From Hyphomicrobium sp. (GTDB lineage Bacteria > Pseudomonadota > Alphaproteobacteria > Rhizobiales > Hyphomicrobiaceae), in the NCBI GenBank assembly GCA_030598645.1, contig JAUVPN010000088.1, positions 1 to 8,984 of the forward strand: 8,984 nucleotides of DNA, written 5' to 3'. Each line of letters opens with the position of its first letter. Position 1 is the first letter of the stretch. Under the pieces are notes generated by a model, which saw only the letters and a program-made list of their open reading frames with translations, did no database searches and was not told the origin of the DNA. Position numbers and translations under genes: made by a program. Of the stretch, positions 1,844 through 8,441 are shown one piece after another.

Positions 1844-2302
1844 TCACTTCGGAAATAGCGTCAGCGATACCGTCGTTTCTTCTTGAACCAATGTCACAGC
1901 AGTCGGGTTGACCTTTTGAACCCGCCAGCCGTGGACCGCATCACCTGCCTGCACCCTCAAAATGGCGTCGGTCGATTTTTGCTGTTGCAGTGCCAACGAT
2001 TTCCCGTTGCCCGATACCACCCCGACGAGTCCGAAAGCTTTGGTGTCCGGCTTTTTCTTCGGCTTTATGGTAACCACACGCCTAATGTGCTTGATGATCC
2101 GCGGAGGACGTCGGGTGTTTGTGAACAAGGGGCGCTTGATCGCGTGGCCGAGTTGCTCGAGGTCGATCACGGAAAGGGGATTTACCGGCGCGACCTCATC
2201 TCGCATCTCACCCGACGATTGCGACACCGCCCGTCGTTCCGGCTCGATACGACCGATCTCCACACCAGCACTTTGATCTCCTAGCTCATCGGCATTCACC
2301 AT
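1844..2302 (-). CDS. Orphan type II secretion GspN/GspC-like protein
   Basis: The predicted protein has 152 residues if ATG at 2302 is used. The motif KRPLFTNTRRPP at about residues 56-67 is typical of the start of the periplasmic homology region of type II secretion GspC/GspN proteins. A basic linker follows (about 70-88), then a small beta-rich domain (FGLVGVV at 90-96, GWRV at 125-128, and a C-terminal VSLTLF). In full systems such proteins link the inner-membrane platform to the secretin. Here I see no clear N-terminal membrane helix. The frame stays open upstream to 2614, but that extension runs antisense into the polyketide synthase and looks non-native. It may therefore be truncated at the N-terminus. 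No other secretion genes lie in the window. It is transcribed away from the synthase gene, with a 236-base gap. The ribosome-binding site is weak. The start is uncertain: GTG at 2305 is directly adjacent. Confidence 0.5.
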   Translation of the reverse strand: MVNADELGDQSAGVEIGRIEPERRAVSQSSGEMRDEVAPVNPLSVIDLEQLGHAIKRPLFTNTRRPPRIIKHIRRVVTIKPKKKPDTKAFGLVGVVSGNGKSLALQQQKSTDAILRVQAGDAVHGWRVQKVNPTAVTLVQEETTVSLTLFPK

Positions 2303-2476
2303 CACGTCACACCAAATGAATACTCCAAGGTGTTTCACGTCGGCAATAAGTAAGCATAAGCTCCGATCGAGAACATCCACCACAAAGTACCTGAGTAAGA
2401 TTGTACCTGCAGCAGATCGGTCACAGCCGCCACCAAAAGGCCAGATTAACCCTCTCAGAGCTAACAATTTGCCGAC

Positions 2477-2492
2477 CTGTTTGCCCACACAG
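2477..2492. promoter_or_regulatory. Small dyad upstream of the polyketide synthase
   Basis: CTGT-N8-ACAG lies 46 bases before the synthase start and could be an operator half-site pair. Its centre contains TTGCCCACA, which recurs at 5464-5472 in the divergent region upstream of the transporter. Four-base arms and one shared nonamer are weak evidence. I could not identify sigma-70 or sigma-54 promoter elements with confidence in this gap. Confidence 0.2.
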
Positions 2493-2538
2493 ACAGTCAA
2501 ACGAGCTACAACTGTTGCGGCGCGGGTGGGAGAAAGCC

Positions 2539-3639
2539 ATGTTAAGCGAGTTGGAGGGGCAGGCCCTGGGCCGCCAAGGGGGTCAAATCGTGGTCGACAT
2601 TGCTGGCATTGCAACCGCAGTGCCCGAGCACAAGGTCACGCAGGAGGAGGTCGCCTATCGTGCCCAGACCGTCTTCCCGCAATATGCCCGCCTTGAGGGC
2701 CTTTACACCAACACAGGGATAGAGTTCCGTTATGCATGCGAGCCCCGCGACTGGTATCTGGAACCGCGGACGTGGGAAGAGCGCACCCAATCCTTCCAAC
2801 ACCATTCACTGAGCCTGCTTGAGGACGTCGCGCGACGGTCTGTGGCATCAGCTGGTCTGCGGCTCGAGGACATCGACGTTATTGTCACCAATACGATCAC
2901 CGGCCTGGCAATCCCGAGTCTGGAGGCGCGGCTGATGAACCGTATGGGCTTCCGATCGGATGTAGAGCGCTTGCCGATATTTGGGCTTGGATGCGGCGGC
3001 GGTGTTGCAGGGCTGGCGCGCGCGGCGAAGATGGCGAAAGCCGAGGCCGGCCAGAACGTCCTGTTCCTCACCATCGACCTGTGCTCGCTGTGCTTGAGAA
3101 TTACCGATCCGAGCCTGGCGATGTTCGTCTCCTGCGCACTTTTCGGCGACGGCGCGGTCGGTGTGGTCCTGCGCAGCAGGCAGGAGAACCCGACCGAAAA
3201 CGCGTCAGCCCCCCTTGGCCGCATTGTCACCACCGGTGAGCACTTTTGGTCTAAGACCGAGCACATCATGGGATGGGACATCAAGAACGACGGCTTCGGC
3301 GTTGTCCTAAGTCCCGAGCTGCCGACCTTGATGCGCAACAACCTCGGTGAGGCGCTTTCCGGCTTCCTGGATCGCGTTGGGCTGACGCTCGAAGATTTCG
3401 ACGGCTTTCTGTTTCACCCTGGGGGACGAAAGGTTCTGGAGACAGCCGAGTCAGCGCTTGGGCTTTCCAGCGACGACCTGAAATCCTCCTGGGAGGTTCT
3501 GCGCGACTACGGCAACATATCATCGGCAACAGCGCTCTTTGTCCTAAAGCACGCAATTGAAAGCGGTGCCCATGGGCGCCATCTGCTGGCAGCCTTCGGG
3601 CCCGGGTTCAGCGCCTATTTCGTCGTGCTTGACCTCTGA
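2539..3639 (+). CDS. Type III polyketide synthase (alkylresorcinol/alkylpyrone synthase-like)
   Basis: This 366-residue protein has the chalcone/stilbene synthase fold. The N-terminal domain starts at VDIAGIATAVPEHKV (about residues 19-33). The catalytic Cys152 lies in FGLGCGGGVAGLARA, His293 in FLFHPGGRKVLE and Asn326 in YGNISSATALFVL, so the full Cys-His-Asn triad is present. FGDGAVGVVL (202-211), MGWDIKNDGF (244-253) and the C-terminal FGPGFSAYF loop (353-361) are also family hallmarks. The length is close to that of bacterial type III synthases. Such enzymes extend a CoA or carrier-bound starter with malonyl-CoA; in bacteria with methyltransferase and flavoenzyme neighbours they usually make long-chain resorcinols or pyrones. 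The ATG at 2539 is preceded by GGGAG at 2528-2532. The frame is open back to 2401, but that extension is non-homologous. The gene converges on the oxidoreductase gene with only 5 bases between stop codons. The product is inferred, not proven; a short-chain phloroglucinol-type product is possible. Confidence 0.92.
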   Translation: MLSELEGQALGRQGGQIVVDIAGIATAVPEHKVTQEEVAYRAQTVFPQYARLEGLYTNTGIEFRYACEPRDWYLEPRTWEERTQSFQHHSLSLLEDVARRSVASAGLRLEDIDVIVTNTITGLAIPSLEARLMNRMGFRSDVERLPIFGLGCGGGVAGLARAAKMAKAEAGQNVLFLTIDLCSLCLRITDPSLAMFVSCALFGDGAVGVVLRSRQENPTENASAPLGRIVTTGEHFWSKTEHIMGWDIKNDGFGVVLSPELPTLMRNNLGEALSGFLDRVGLTLEDFDGFLFHPGGRKVLETAESALGLSSDDLKSSWEVLRDYGNISSATALFVLKHAIESGAHGRHLLAAFGPGFSAYFVVLDL

Positions 3640-3644
3640 GGGAG

Positions 3645-4763
3645 TCACGCACGCATGGTATCTGATGGTGCGTTAGTGAGACGCGTCAGTCGCGTAAGGC
3701 CCGTTGCCAGGCCGGGGAACGCTGCAACGGCGCCAACACTCAAGAAACGGGCAAGCGGGCTCCTGAATGACAGGTCGATGGCTCTTGCCCAGCGAAATTG
3801 GCCACGAAGGCGTGCATGGAAGACGTCTTGAAACTGGCCAGCTCGCTGGCCGGTGACAACCGCCTGCGCTGCAGCGATACCTGATAACAGGGCGATCGAC
3901 GTCCCGTCCCCCGTGAATGATGGGATAACGGCAATCTGGTCGCCAATCGGAAAAACGCGCGCCTCGATCTCATTGTGCCGAATATAACCGATCGGAATGG
4001 CAGAGATGGTTGCCGGCTTTTCAGCCAATGGCTTTGCATTAACGAGCAAGTCACAGAGATAGGGCGACTGGCGCGCGAGCTCATCAAGCTGCGTCGACCA
4101 GCGGCCTTGCGTGCGCTGCATGAACGACTTGACGGCAAGCCAGCACAATGTCGCTGCACCGCATTCGATATTGCACGCACCGATGTAACCGCCGCGATAA
4201 CTGACGAGCTGCACCACACCGAGCAGTGAGCGGACAGCACTGGCACTGAGCTCGAATGACATCTTGAACGCCGTTGGGCCGCCGCCCGGTCGCTGCAATC
4301 CCCTGAAGTTGTGCTTGCCGGTTGCCAATGCGACCCATTGAGCTGTAAGTGCACGCCCGCCAATCTGGATGGTGACATGGCGAGGACCGGGTTCAAGCGC
4401 GCTCGCTCCCTTTCCCCTGATGATCTCTGCACCGGCACGCCGCGCTTCGCTTAGCAAGCTTTCATCCAACTTCAGCCGCGAAAGGCCGGCGGCATCAAAG
4501 GGAAGCGGTGCGGTTGCCGCGATCCTTTGCGTCGCCAATCGGAAATCCGTGATGCGATGCGCCCCCATCGCCCGCACATCGAGACCAAGTCCTAAGAGCA
4601 GCTGTTGCGCCTCCGCGCTCAGAAAATCACCGCAGACCTTGATCTGTGGCGCGGGAGTTCGTTCGATGACGGCAACCCGCAGACCTTGACGCGCGAGCGT
4701 TAGGGCAAAGGCGCTACCCGCTAGTCCGCCGCCGATCGCTATGGCATCGAAGTCCATTTTCAC
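3645..4763 (-). CDS. FAD-dependent oxidoreductase, geranylgeranyl-reductase-like
   Basis: This 372-residue flavoprotein has an N-terminal dinucleotide-binding fold: IGGGLAGSAFAL, with GxGxxG at residues 11-16 and Glu34 closing the second strand. KVCGDFLS (42-49) resembles the conserved CG(D/E) segment of geranylgeranyl-reductase-like enzymes. FPIGDQIAVIPSFTGDG (271-287) is the second FAD motif (GD at 274-275). There is no membrane anchor. Members of this superfamily either reduce isolated double bonds in lipid chains or hydroxylate aromatic rings. In phenolic-lipid clusters a neighbouring flavoenzyme (SrsC type) hydroxylates the resorcinol ring; the CGDF motif here points at least as well to chain reduction. 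The start is GTG at 4763, preceded by GAGGG seven bases upstream; ATG at 4757 is the alternative but is poorly spaced. The GTG overlaps the methyltransferase stop by one base (TAGTG), so the two are translationally coupled. Confidence 0.85.
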   Translation of the reverse strand: MKMDFDAIAIGGGLAGSAFALTLARQGLRVAVIERTPAPQIKVCGDFLSAEAQQLLLGLGLDVRAMGAHRITDFRLATQRIAATAPLPFDAAGLSRLKLDESLLSEARRAGAEIIRGKGASALEPGPRHVTIQIGGRALTAQWVALATGKHNFRGLQRPGGGPTAFKMSFELSASAVRSLLGVVQLVSYRGGYIGACNIECGAATLCWLAVKSFMQRTQGRWSTQLDELARQSPYLCDLLVNAKPLAEKPATISAIPIGYIRHNEIEARVFPIGDQIAVIPSFTGDGTSIALLSGIAAAQAVVTGQRAGQFQDVFHARLRGQFRWARAIDLSFRSPLARFLSVGAVAAFPGLATGLTRLTRLTNAPSDTMRA

Positions 4764-5332
4764 TATTTCGCCCTCGGAACCTCGCCCAGACTCTGCTGGA
4801 GATTTCCGCTCGCAGCTCGGCGCCGCTCCTTTAGCGCAGCATCCTCCAGCACGATTTTGTAGCGGACGACGGCAGTCCAGATTGCCGTCATGATAAGGGC
4901 CAACGCTATGGCACCGAAGGCAAGGGGGAGTACAAGAGTCTCCAGTACCGTCACGACGTAGTTCGGATGGCGCACCCAGCGATAGGGACCGCGCCGTTCG
5001 ATCGGGGCACCTTCAAGCGTGATGATCCTGTGTGTCCAATAGCGCCGCAGCGTCCCGATGATCCAATAGCGTGCCACTTGCAAAACGAAATAGACAGCAA
5101 GCAGTGGCCAGATGATCCCAGCATCAGACGGGATAAGAAAGAAGATGGCGGCAATCCAAGCCAGGTGCGAGACAGCAACGACGGGGTAGTAGTTAGCGCC
5201 TTCCTCATGCGCGCCCTGAGCCAGAAGCCGGCGCGTATTGCGCATCGAAAGGGCTTCCTCGAGTCCGCGCTGCAGCAACACAATGAGGGCGGCAGCCTGG
5301 GCGGGCCCGATGAAATCAAGAATGGAGTCCAT
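4763..5332 (-). CDS. Membrane methyltransferase, isoprenylcysteine carboxyl methyltransferase family
   Basis: From ATG at 5332 the protein has 189 residues. Hydrophobic segments lie at about 10-20, 50-67, 72-91 and 129-156. The family signature GPYRWVRHPNY (residues 115-125) is followed by a long hydrophobic hairpin and RYKIVLEDAALKER (157-170). This is the SAM- and substrate-binding end of ICMT-like enzymes, in which an acidic pair follows an Arg. Homologues beside type III synthases (the BpsB type) O-methylate alkylpyrones or resorcinols in the membrane, which fits the neighbours here. The frame remains open to a TTG at 5431 and passes an ATG at 5389, but the extra residues look non-native and would overlap the palindrome at 5392-5417. 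I therefore prefer 5332, though its ribosome-binding site is weak. It is the first gene of a two-gene operon with the oxidoreductase. Confidence 0.82.
   Translation of the reverse strand: MDSILDFIGPAQAAALIVLLQRGLEEALSMRNTRRLLAQGAHEEGANYYPVVAVSHLAWIAAIFFLIPSDAGIIWPLLAVYFVLQVARYWIIGTLRRYWTHRIITLEGAPIERRGPYRWVRHPNYVVTVLETLVLPLAFGAIALALIMTAIWTAVVRYKIVLEDAALKERRRAASGNLQQSLGEVPRAK
4771..4775 (-). promoter_or_regulatory. Ribosome-binding site deciding the GTG start of the oxidoreductase
   Basis: GAGGG on the minus strand lies 7 bases before GTG at 4763 and 13 bases before ATG at 4757. The spacing favours GTG. It sits inside the last codons of the methyltransferase gene, which supports coupled translation. 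Confidence 0.6.
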
Positions 5333-5391
5333 CGAAAAGCTTTTCTGGAGCGCGGCATCAGTTTCAATCGAGGAGCCGCGCCAATGCATTG

Positions 5392-5417
5392 GTCTGCCGC
5401 GAAGTATCGCGGTAGAC
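5392..5417. promoter_or_regulatory. 26-bp palindrome in the divergent control region
   Basis: The arms GTCTGCCGCGA (5392-5402) and TCGCGGTAGAC (5407-5417) flank the 4-base centre AGTA; 10 of 11 arm positions pair. It lies 60-85 bases upstream of the methyltransferase start at 5332 and about 190 bases upstream of the transporter start. That placement suits an operator for a dimeric repressor controlling the tailoring operon, or an RNA hairpin in its leader. No regulator gene is in the window to pair with it. Confidence 0.45.
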
Positions 5418-5607
5418 GTTGTTCCTGGCAAGAAACAGAGGACGACATCCTCAATTTCGGCACTTGCCCACAGAGGGACGGGATGTCTAAGTCTGCGCTT
5501 GATGACCCGCTACGATTAGCGCCAATAGATACGGCATCGAGATGGTAAGTATGAGGCGTAACCGCAGCTGGCTCATCCAAGGTCGAAATGCTTAAGTCCA
5601 GCGCACG

Positions 5608-8001
5608 ATGAGCCATCGAGCATTGAGGACCACGACGCAACCGCATCCTACCGCATCACTCGGGCTCGGGATCGAGCGCCTTGGCCTCATCGCGGCCCGT
5701 CACCCGTGGGTAACTCTTACTGTCATTGTCGCCCTTACGTGTGTCAGCGCCATCGGTCTACTGCGGCTCGAAACAGACGACTCGCTCAATGAGTTCTTTC
5801 GCTCGAGCAGCGAAAGCTATCGCGAATACCAGGAGCTCAAACGCGGTTTCCCGGTCAGTGGCAACGACGTCCTTGTGGTCGTTGAAGCAGATAGTCTGAA
5901 ACGCGCAAGTACGCTGGAAAGTCTTCGCGACCTGCAGTTGGAGCTCTTGCTGGTCGAGAACGTCATCGGCGTCCTGTCGCTTTTTTCTGTCCACGAGCGG
6001 CCACGAGGTGACGAGATCCCGCCACCGCTGATCCCTGAGACGCTGCCTGAAGGTGAAGCCCTAGACCAGCTTATCGAACAGGTGCGCTTGCATCCGTTCG
6101 TCGGTGGCCGGCTTCTGTCAACAAAGGCCGGAGGAGCCCAAACCGTCGTTTTCATTGTCGAGGTCGCTGAGACGGCAAGTGAGGACGACGAATTTACGGC
6201 AATAATCCATGACGTTCAGCAGACCGCAAACACGTTCGCGGTGCATAGCGGGCTGAAAGTGGGATTGACCGGCATTCCCGTTATGAAGCTTGAAATTGGC
6301 GAAGCGAGCCGCCGTGATCGCATCGTCTTCAACGTCGCAGGTTTTTGTGTCGGCCTCATCGTCTGTTTGATCTTTTTCCGTCGGCTGGATCTCGTTGTTA
6401 TCTCTAATGTGGCTCCCATCGCATGCGTTTTGTGGACACTCGGGCTATTTGGTTTTTGTGGAATCGCGCTGAACCCGATCTTGAATGCGGTCCTGCCCCT
6501 GCTCATGGTGATCGCCTTTACGAACTCCATGCACCTCGTGTTTGAGATGCGCGCCGGGCTTCAAGGTGGCCTTGAAAAGTGCGATGCTATCCGCAGAGCG
6601 ATTTTGAGTGTGGGACCGGCCTGCGTCGTGACCACACTGACCACCATGCTTGCGTTGCTTTCCATTGCGCTGGCGGACTCCGAACTCATCCGGACGTTCG
6701 GGCTCGCTGCCGCCGGCGGAATGATCCTAACCTTTCTTGCCGTAATTCTATTGCCGCAGGCAGCCTCGGCCGCCGACACGGACTACGCGAGCGCCCGGCC
6801 GCTTACGTGGCTTGATAAGTTCTCGATCGGCCTCGCGCATCATCTCGCCAAGCGGTGCTGGCTGATTTCGATCGCTGGGCTAGCCCTGTTTGTCCTCGTC
6901 GTGGCGCTCTACCTACGCGTTGATCCGTACTATCGACTGACCGACATCACACCGCGCAATGAGCAGGCCCACGTCGTTTCAGAGCGCCTTGAGAAAAGTC
7001 TCACCGGGATTCATCCCGTGCAGGTCCTTGTGCGCTGGCCGGCGAACGAACCGGCAGGATCTGAGCGGATCTTGAAACTGCTCGGTGAAGTCGACCAGGT
7101 GCTGCGCGAAAACGAGATCGTGCACAACGTCTGGTCTATCGAGAGGCTACGCCGTTGGATCGTCGTGGACGGTGTTGCCGTGCCGGAAGATTGGTCGGTA
7201 CACATCGAAAAGCTGCCACCCAACATCTCCAAGAGGATGATTAACGAAAGCGAGCGTGCAGCCGTTGTGTCGGGATTCATCCCGGATCTGGAAGCTCATG
7301 ACGTTCTTGCGCTAAAGAAGGAAATCGAAGGAGCGGTTAGGCCGGTCCGTGTGCGCTATCCTGACTTTGAGCTTGTCGTATCGGGTGTGTCGGTTATGTC
7401 GGCGACAGCGGCGCTTAGCGTCATTGAACAGCTCAACCGCTCGCTTCTCATGGCTATTGTACTCGTCATCGTCTGCATGACGTTGGCATTCCGGTCGTTG
7501 CAGGTCGGGCTGCTGAGCTTGCTTCCCAACCTGTTTGCGCTCGCAGCCACGGGGGCTTTACTCTATGTCCTCGGATGGGGCCTCGAGTATGCCGGCATCA
7601 TTGCGTTGACGGTTGCGTTCGGTCTTGCTGTCGATGACACCATCCATGTGGTCAATCGCTTTCGCAATGAGGCTCAGGGCTCCGAGTCTTTGGCAGCAGC
7701 CGTTGAGCGGACAATCGCACGCATCGGCCCGATTCTGATCTTAACGACCATTGTCTTGGTGTTTGGGATTTCGGTCTCGGCATTGAGCGTCGTACCGCCG
7801 ACGAAGATGTTTGGTCAGATTTGTGTTGCAACCCTCGTCTTCGCCCTTCTCGGCGATCTCATCCTTCTGCCGGCCTTGATGCTGGTGGCAACACGTTTCG
7901 GGTTTTTACAAAGCGCGATTGACCCTGGAGTTGGCCGGGCAACAACAGATGATGTCGGGGCTGCGTCGGTCGACCGGACGTCAGATCGCCCCGTGGCTTG
8001 A
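5608..8001 (+). CDS. MMPL/RND-family lipid exporter (HpnN-like architecture)
   Basis: This 797-residue inner-membrane transporter has the duplicated RND layout. A helix at about 35-53 is followed by a periplasmic domain (54-238), which starts with ETDDSLNEFF. A five-helix block spans 239-385, a second first-helix lies at 417-436, a second periplasmic domain at 437-611, and a final five-helix block at 612-762. The second half carries FGLAVDDTIHVVNRF (671-685), the classic proton-relay helix, with Asp676 and Asp677. The matching helix of the first half is IAFTNSMHLVFEMR (302-315), with Thr305 and Asn306 at those positions. RND proteins of this type move hopanoids, carotenoid-like lipids and other lipids from the inner membrane using the proton gradient. 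Its place across a control region from lipid-tailoring genes suggests export of the polyketide lipid. ATG at 5608 gives a normal N-terminus but has a poor ribosome-binding site. The substrate is inferred. Confidence 0.9.
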   Translation: MSHRALRTTTQPHPTASLGLGIERLGLIAARHPWVTLTVIVALTCVSAIGLLRLETDDSLNEFFRSSSESYREYQELKRGFPVSGNDVLVVVEADSLKRASTLESLRDLQLELLLVENVIGVLSLFSVHERPRGDEIPPPLIPETLPEGEALDQLIEQVRLHPFVGGRLLSTKAGGAQTVVFIVEVAETASEDDEFTAIIHDVQQTANTFAVHSGLKVGLTGIPVMKLEIGEASRRDRIVFNVAGFCVGLIVCLIFFRRLDLVVISNVAPIACVLWTLGLFGFCGIALNPILNAVLPLLMVIAFTNSMHLVFEMRAGLQGGLEKCDAIRRAILSVGPACVVTTLTTMLALLSIALADSELIRTFGLAAAGGMILTFLAVILLPQAASAADTDYASARPLTWLDKFSIGLAHHLAKRCWLISIAGLALFVLVVALYLRVDPYYRLTDITPRNEQAHVVSERLEKSLTGIHPVQVLVRWPANEPAGSERILKLLGEVDQVLRENEIVHNVWSIERLRRWIVVDGVAVPEDWSVHIEKLPPNISKRMINESERAAVVSGFIPDLEAHDVLALKKEIEGAVRPVRVRYPDFELVVSGVSVMSATAALSVIEQLNRSLLMAIVLVIVCMTLAFRSLQVGLLSLLPNLFALAATGALLYVLGWGLEYAGIIALTVAFGLAVDDTIHVVNRFRNEAQGSESLAAAVERTIARIGPILILTTIVLVFGISVSALSVVPPTKMFGQICVATLVFALLGDLILLPALMLVATRFGFLQSAIDPGVGRATTDDVGAASVDRTSDRPVA

Positions 8002-8099
8002 CCACGTGTGAAGCAGCTGGGAGGTTGTCAACCGTGCTTCAATCACTGGTCGTTCGTCTCCAAAGCTGAGAGGTTTACGCCTCAATACCGGAAGGATTT
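8002..8099. other. Short gap between transporter and small lipoprotein gene
   Basis: In this 98-base gap I see no convincing terminator. An imperfect hairpin-like sequence around 8066-8084 (TGAGAGG ... CCTCA) has too short a stem to call. Co-transcription of the downstream small gene with the transporter is therefore possible. Confidence 0.3.
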
Positions 8100-8336
8100 A
8101 TGGTCAGGAATCATTATCGACGCTTGGTACTAGCTAGTCTGACAATTCAAGCTGTTTTGCAATCTTGTGGTGGGAGTATTCGAGCGGAAGTGATGCTTCT
8201 GCCACGTCCCACGCCCAATTTGTTTCGCACCAGCACCGCCCCCCTCACCAATCTGATCAAGAATACAGGCTTCGAGCCGGACATCGCACGTCACCTTGCT
8301 AAGCGTGTGTTCGGTTCAGTTCTCTTGCCATCGTGA
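8100..8336 (+). CDS. Small predicted lipoprotein, unknown function
   Basis: This 78-residue protein has a basic N-terminus (RNHYRR), a short hydrophobic stretch (LVLASLTIQAVL, residues 9-20) and then LQSC with Cys at 23. This looks like a lipoprotein signal sequence with a non-ideal lipobox. The mature part is only about 55 residues, rich in Pro, Leu and Thr at first, then a possible amphipathic helix (EPDIARHLAKRVF). The ATG at 8100 has a strong ribosome-binding site, GGAAGG, four bases upstream, so it is probably translated. It follows the transporter on the same strand by 98 bases. A role as a small accessory protein to the RND pump is speculation from position. I recognise no family. It could also be the remnant of a longer gene. 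Confidence 0.5.
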   Translation: MVRNHYRRLVLASLTIQAVLQSCGGSIRAEVMLLPRPTPNLFRTSTAPLTNLIKNTGFEPDIARHLAKRVFGSVLLPS

Positions 8337-8352
8337 AACCATAAGAGGAACG

Positions 8353-8370
8353 GGGAGGGGACAACCTCTC
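8353..8370 (+). other. Possible weak stem-loop after the small lipoprotein gene
   Basis: GGGAGG (8353-8358) can pair with CCTCTC (8365-8370) with one G-U pair and a 6-base loop. No T-run follows, so it is not a typical intrinsic terminator. The perfect palindrome GTATGCATAC follows at 8381-8390. Confidence 0.2.
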
Positions 8371-8441
8371 TCGGTTGTGGGTATGCATACTCGTACCGTG
8401 TCGACGCGAACCACTCCAGTACGAACAAATTGAGCATAACA

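Follow-up and report, generated by a model that had tools for sequence, protein, structure and literature searches.

A type III polyketide synthase locus of Hyphomicrobium with an adjoining MMPL transporter: a possible make, modify and export system for a polyketide lipid

Are the lipids made by type III polyketide synthases (PKSs) left in the membrane in which they are formed, or are some of them shipped out by a transporter of their own? Many bacteria make alkylresorcinols, alkylpyrones or polyketide quinones, which are widespread compounds, and the route by which they reach cyst coats, biofilms or the medium matters; to our knowledge, the transport of such lipids to outer layers has rarely been asked about. 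The question is raised by a contig of Hyphomicrobium sp. (JAUVPN010000088.1, assembly GCA_030598645.1), analyzed here over a stretch of 8,984 nucleotides (the window), which encodes a type III PKS (pks), an FAD-dependent oxidoreductase (the flavoenzyme), a membrane methyltransferase of the ICMT family (icmt) and an MMPL-family transporter of the RND type (mmpl). In our view the best explanation is a locus that makes, modifies and exports a polyketide lipid, and we put the probability of this reading at about one half. The enzyme set is already known; the four-gene locus and the recurrence of an exporter at the pks-icmt pair appear to be new variations on it. The conserved locus, together with an overlapping pks-icmt-mmpl operon found in another PKS locus, supplies concrete transporter candidates, and an unrelated exporter family recurring beside the same gene pair makes this a general question rather than a curiosity of one contig.

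The four-gene locus and its recurrence

The four sizeable open reading frames (ORFs) of the window are consecutive, in the order and orientation pks>, <flavoenzyme, <icmt, mmpl> (Table 1), and all four products scored above a gathering score in Pfam (Chal_sti_synt N/C, FAD_binding_3/DAO, ICMT and MMPL), which bears out the arrangement proposed in the initial annotation. The pks and flavoenzyme genes are convergent, with 5 nt between the two stop codons. The icmt stop codon overlaps the flavoenzyme start, in agreement with the earlier description of this pair as coupled, and icmt and mmpl are divergent. A single four-gene operon was rejected because the strands alternate, and the four genes form at least three transcription units. 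Judged from the alignment, the true start of icmt is probably an internal ATG near 5332. The layout indicates that the region between this start and mmpl, in which no repeats were found, likely holds the promoters of both genes.

Table 1. Features of the locus, and PKS loci with an MFS efflux gene
Feature	Position	Strand	Details
Type III polyketide synthase (pks), BpsA/Pks11-like	2539-3639	+	366 aa; Pfam PF02797 and PF00195 above cut-off
FAD-dependent oxidoreductase (flavoenzyme)	3645-4763	-	372 aa; Pfam PF01494/PF01266 (FAD_binding_3/DAO) above cut-off
ICMT-family membrane methyltransferase, BpsB-like (icmt)	4763-5431	-	PF04140, 68 bits; TTG start at 5431
MMPL-family RND transporter (mmpl)	5608-8001	+	797 aa; PF03176, 82.9 bits vs gathering score 20.5
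Divergent intergenic region icmt/mmpl	5333-5607 (icmt start taken near 5332)	.	Basis: gene layout
MFS efflux gene beside pks-icmt pair	Loci L088, L100, L187, L188, L192, L193, L205, L222, L224, L227, L232, L234, L235, L239		L187 and L188 are plasmid loci

We compared the window with 94 further PKS loci, taken from the top of ranked lists rather than sampled randomly; one side spans less than 4.5 kb in 26 of the 95. An ICMT gene adjoins the PKS in 86 of the 95 loci, including 67 of the 71 with a PKS identity below 55%. At a PKS identity of 55% or more, 14 of the 24 loci have the flavoenzyme beside the PKS, versus 0 of the 71 others; the 14 count in a weak match (30%, L002) and a fragmented one (L091). 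These counts support the earlier claim that synthase, methyltransferase and flavoenzyme form a recurrent set.

The complete locus recurs in L001, from a Hyphomicrobium metagenome-assembled genome (MAG), with the same four-gene order and strands and with 70, 55, 60 and 50% identity for pks, flavoenzyme, icmt and mmpl, respectively. Another MMPL gene was observed in L210, as part of a tight operon on one strand (5226-9598, minus) whose pks, icmt and mmpl genes overlap or touch. Its product is absent from our MMPL tree and looks like a separate recruitment, because it is only 27% identical to the window's protein. A 172-residue ORF overlapping the end of this mmpl gene, with a signal-like N-terminus and no Pfam match, encodes a candidate periplasmic partner of the exporter.

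A second, unrelated exporter family was found beside the same gene pair: an MFS efflux gene adjoins the PKS in 12 of the 95 loci (a raw count). Eleven of the 12 follow icmt immediately, in the same orientation, at about 500-600 bp from the PKS end. In L088, which has a flavoenzyme and an icmt like the window, the MFS gene (6770-8374) is located just upstream of pks. The two MFS proteins run against NCBIfam (L187 and L088) pass the DHA2 model TIGR00711, and the other genes were called by identity to the L187 and L188 proteins. Plasmids also carry distant PKS relatives (all below 60%), in 106 records of which Rhizobium accounts for 44; four of the 106, examined apart from the 95 loci, carried ICMT in 4/4, MFS in 2/4 and MMPL in 0/4 cases.

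A further neighbor was observed in L093, L094, L095, L096 and L098, where a convergent gene of 412 residues (grouped by clustering) comes after the pks-icmt pair. Pfam identifies the L095 copy as a ketoacyl synthase, and this gene possibly supplies the acyl starter.

Contig sizes point to additional linked transporters. Three further MMPL-flavoenzyme pairs lie on contigs of identical size (9954, 22342 and 53279 bases), with the 22342-base contig also matching a PKS, and a control with shifted sizes (contigs of at least 5 kb) gave a mean of 0.16 coincidences and a maximum of 2, versus 3 seen; this suggests three more linked MMPL cases. Two other coincidences were treated as chance, one at 2690 bases (P0229/P0338) and one at 3904 bases (P0127/P0292), which is too short for mmpl, icmt and a full flavoenzyme gene. 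In the MMPL tree, for which the tool gave a long-branch warning, the five linked proteins (window, L001 and the three size-matched ones) fall in one 17-row set (SH-aLRT 100) that stands apart from unlinked Hyphomicrobiales MMPLs. Among contigs of at least 9 kb, 4 of 6 members of this set (one being the window's own) share their size with the PKS/flavoenzyme lists versus 0 of 48 outside it, with the flavoenzyme list built from the L001 protein as query and so favoring the window's group. The transporter link is real but narrow, being conserved in a small group.

The enzymes, the transporter and related systems

The window PKS belongs to type III by its Chal_sti_synt domains and its Cys-His-Asn triad. 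The triad consists of Cys152, His293 and Asn326, exactly as first annotated, and is common to 74 of 75 aligned homolog rows; the remaining row (L020) has only gaps there, and the alignment contains one gene twice (L001 = L054). The nearest solved PKS is the alkylpyrone synthase Pks11 of M. tuberculosis (192 bits), and BpsA-type proteins of Bacillales match at 31-38% identity. An identity as DpgA, the dihydroxyphenylacetyl-CoA synthase, was rejected (NF042429, 156.2 bits vs a cut-off of 425).

In Azotobacter, according to the accessible part of the source, Trp281 in ArsB versus Gly284 in ArsC decides between resorcinol and pyrone formation (PMC6274091). The cyclization-control residue of the window PKS is Trp246, and a Trp at the equivalent position is also present in the pyrone synthase Pks11 and in 20 of 21 BpsA-type Bacillales rows, the other row having a gap. 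We take Trp246 to be this site by counting back from Gly256 of CHS. Because Pks11 and the BpsA-type proteins share the Trp, it does not settle resorcinol versus pyrone, and we rejected it as proof of resorcinol formation. Phe replaces Trp at this site in L056 (the same gene as in L086), L173 and L182. Neither icmt nor the flavoenzyme adjoins the Phe-bearing PKSs of L086, L173 and L182, the last of which begins at a contig end; the PKS of L083 has Trp, yet is also without adjoining icmt and flavoenzyme.

The predicted structure of the flavoenzyme (pLDDT 91.7) is closest in fold to the flavin halogenases ChlB4 and PltA, with group A monooxygenases and a geranylgeranyl-reductase-like protein among the first 50 matches; identities were 13-22% in the 50 matches listed. 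Flavin-dependent halogenases are marked by a catalytic Lys. We regard the protein as a probable aromatic hydroxylase of the PKS product and favor ring hydroxylation; halogenation or reduction may be other possible reactions. Membership of the geranylgeranyl reductase family was rejected (TIGR02032, 91.9 bits vs a cut-off of 158.8).

Within the set, the flavoenzyme shows the most specific linkage. In the order that contains G001, the Hyphomicrobium MAG from which L001 comes, 20 of 397 genomes gave a flavoenzyme match (E up to 1e-40). In 19 of these a type III PKS match is located no more than 1 kb away from it; in the remaining genome, G379, the flavoenzyme match is on another contig. The pairing persists at PKS identities as low as about 30%. 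In the second PKS clade represented by L153, L155 and L161 (about 30% identical), a methyltransferase of another class (Methyltransf_25 by Pfam in L153; placed in the other class by clustering in L155 and L161) lies between the PKS and the same flavoenzyme family.

The transporter, described earlier as an 800-residue MMPL/RND pump, is indeed present; it is, however, nine residues shorter after residue 380 than all 34 other aligned rows. Its sibling P0121, 98% identical, has the nine-residue segment, which sits near the end of a predicted helix (window 6736-6770), and the difference may be a natural deletion or an assembly variant. A profile built from 35 sequences placed HpnN and MmpL3 first among solved proteins, and the predicted model (pLDDT 80.9) matched MmpL3/4/5, HpnN and NPC1-like proteins in fold. 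By this profile and model, the transporter is of the lipid-carrying RND type, nearer to lipid RNDs than to tripartite pumps.

HpnN, a hopanoid RND transporter with a lipid cargo by its PDB title, is the best solved profile match and has a similar fold, but the window protein is far below the cut-offs of the HpnN models (107.5 and 30.1 bits vs equivalog cut-offs of 751.85 and 1100), and this identity was rejected. The best NCBIfam match was the HAE3 subfamily TIGR00921, at 179.7 bits also below its cut-off of 351.9. In the segment that we take, from the general layout of such proteins, to be transmembrane helix 4, the window's MMPL group has Asn, versus Asp in most unlinked relatives; the segment resembling transmembrane helix 10 keeps Asp-Asp. 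A search of plasmids with the MMPL protein gave no match at E up to 1e-20.

The window shares the pairing of a PKS and an ICMT-family methyltransferase with bpsA-bpsB of Bacillus subtilis, which yields alkylpyrones and their methylated form and whose pair was present in 21 of 21 Bacillales loci. It differs in the low PKS identity given above and in having icmt on the opposite strand behind the flavoenzyme, so that the ICMT match begins 1130 bp from the PKS end. No match to the window flavoenzyme or MMPL was found in the 21 Bacillales loci.

All three enzyme roles of the srsABC, pkqABC and hidABC quinone cassettes, and of the cassettes of Planctomycetota, are likewise present in the window, the likeness being one of enzyme role. 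In the studied cases, as far as the accessible text of two papers goes, these cassettes give methylated alkylresorcinols or quinones, and no adjoining exporter is described there (PMC9927152, PMC10896814): the word 'transport' is absent from the accessible part of the former, and 'transporter' occurs once in that of the latter, for an unrelated gene. The same part of PMC10896814 reports that 58 of 96 planctomycetal type III PKS genes sit in PKS-methyltransferase-oxidoreductase operons, one operon carrying a putative lipoprotein and a lipid-binding protein.

RND, MFS and ABC transporters are encoded in some cyanobacterial type III PKS clusters, for which the authors suggest an extracellular role (PMC8086630, accessible part). 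These clusters share with the window an RND transporter encoded with a type III PKS; they differ in being hybrid type I/III or in containing cytochrome b5, and no ICMT-flavoenzyme set is described in that part of the article. Together with the recurrent MFS genes, they speak against taking an exporter beside such a set, initially described as unusual, to be unprecedented. For an MMPL protein together with the PKS-ICMT-flavoenzyme set, no description was found in the literature searched, with most hits screened as listings and most subscription papers outside its reach; PMC10619280 contains 'MMPL' and 'transporter', but 'type III polyketide synthase' only in its reference list.

Export of the product and competing explanations

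The export reading builds on gene content, the intact triad, the conservation of the cassette, the lipid-type fold of the transporter and an exporter linkage that recurs in a minority of loci. In this scheme, the synthase would extend a long-chain acyl starter to a tetraketide resorcinol or a tri- or tetraketide pyrone, the flavoenzyme would hydroxylate the ring, and the membrane-embedded ICMT would methylate a hydroxyl. The resulting methoxylated phenolic or quinone lipid would reside in the inner membrane, from which the MMPL protein, driven by the proton gradient, would lift it in the direction of the periplasm or the outer membrane; HpnN and MmpL3 lift their own lipids outward from the inner membrane. 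Chain length, ring type, order of the steps, cargo, direction and destination, including the outer membrane, are what we infer.

Export is favored because two unrelated exporter families, MMPL and MFS, adjoin the pks-icmt pair, and some lipids of this kind may thus be shipped out rather than left in the membrane. A more far-reaching proposal, which we offer tentatively and at somewhat less than even odds, is that the window's MMPL set (16 protein clusters) is a dedicated family of type III polyketide lipid transporters, alphaproteobacteria having repeatedly attached an exporter to pks-icmt (MMPL at least twice, a DHA2-type MFS elsewhere). If true, such lipids would leave the cell or reach the outer membrane by design, not by partitioning.

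Several observations weigh against export. Neither an MMPL nor an MFS exporter was seen in 80 of the 95 loci; the close PKS relatives L083, L085 and L087 have no adjoining exporter of these kinds, and in L003 the gene beyond icmt encodes a DAHP synthase. When 385 genomes of the class were searched for the MMPL at E up to 1e-150, G001 alone was recovered (at most 2 candidates per genome scored among the matches listed); a search of the G237 family (8 genomes), which gave nothing new, was uninformative. In the flavoenzyme and PKS trees the linked rows do not form one clade, and therefore the four genes need not have travelled together. The nine missing residues may disable the window's own MMPL copy.

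The enzymes could also form a real pathway beside which the MMPL gene is a chance neighbor, present since the region is gene-poor and rearranged and moving an unrelated hydrophobic compound. MMPL adjoins the PKS in only 3 of the 95 loci (window, L001 and L210), the window mmpl is transcribed away from icmt and the flavoenzyme, and a simple gene caller gave a single ORF of 77 residues (666-899) in the flanks. From a background of 58 MMPL matches in 363 Mb (78 genomes), the chance expectation for MMPLs within 4.5 kb is 0.17 over the 94 non-window loci, and 2 were seen (P(2 or more) = 0.013), a modest figure obtained after the fact, with chance somewhat underestimated, as the background was counted at E up to 1e-30 and the loci by profile at E up to 1e-3. 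Within the MMPL tree, where most clade members are of unknown link status, the 'linked' label clusters no better than shuffled labels do (5 changes vs 4.9). We nevertheless regard a chance neighbor as unlikely: L001 keeps order and strands at about 50-70% identity, i.e. over a long divergence, the equal-sized contigs are concentrated in the window's MMPL set, and L210 has its operon.

Another possibility is an alternative electron carrier: a polyketide quinone made by the three enzymes would remain in the inner membrane and transport electrons when oxygen is low, like the pkqABC products of mycobacteria, while the MMPL protein serves another lipid or its gene merely shares the divergent promoter region. 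In M. smegmatis and Streptomyces sp. MNU77, quinones of this type come from PKS-methyltransferase-oxidoreductase operons (PMC9927152, accessible part), and the more distant loci L153, L155 and L161 (pks-methyltransferase-flavoenzyme) repeat the three-gene scheme with another class of methyltransferase. The initial annotation would have been refuted by the absence of any conserved linkage of the transporter with the three enzymes, and such linkage is conserved in a small group; yet among the 13 loci with icmt and flavoenzyme beside pks, an exporter of the two kinds sought accompanies only 3 (window, L001 and L088) and neither kind accompanies the other 10, which suits an electron carrier. This explanation leaves the MMPL of L001, the L210 operon and the recurrent MFS genes unaccounted for, and the methyltransferase of the window is BpsB-like and not of the other class; it is a serious alternative, rather less probable than export, though a good deal more so than a pump for self-protection. 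Such a pump would expel a bioactive product, for example an antimicrobial or signaling pyrone or phenol, as an effector or for self-resistance, and the MFS proteins of other loci would do likewise. The DHA2 efflux model fits both MFS proteins that were run, and the 4-hydroxy alkylpyrone of bpsA-bpsB alters biofilms in several Bacillus strains and is lethal to two more (PMC5686519, accessible part), but the MMPL profile and fold point first to the lipid carriers HpnN, MmpL3 and NPC1-like proteins, with MmpL4 and MmpL5 also close, and we consider self-protection very unlikely.

Replicon context and flanks of the locus

In the PKS tree the window pairs with P0003 (SH-aLRT 97) and in the flavoenzyme tree with P0333 (SH-aLRT 82); both come from a Hyphomicrobiaceae bacterium MAG and both are on a contig of 7918 bases. 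The nearest named relatives of the two enzymes are Hyphomicrobiaceae/Hyphomicrobiales MAGs, and a search of plasmids with the whole window gave no near match. The locus had initially been placed in a rhizobial island, which we rejected as unsupported; the only hints in that direction are the distant PKSs on rhizobial plasmids and an ORF at 1844-2614 (minus strand). This ORF is 32% identical (E 1e-5) to a hypothetical protein adjoining gspM in a type II secretion cluster on a Bradyrhizobium plasmid, and may be a relic. A rhizobial host may still apply, given that Hyphomicrobiales also contains rhizobia and that distant PKS relatives occur on their plasmids. The role in a host-associated or resting state, suggested at first, is unsupported: no evidence for it was found, and no search aimed at it was made.

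Scans of the window gave nothing at the gathering score in Rfam and no tRNA, and the flank ORFs compared with Pfam, four in one set and two in another, had no matches. At the left edge, GGTTCGA-type repeats in direct and inverted orientation are clustered at positions 8-122 and perhaps serve in protein binding or recombination.

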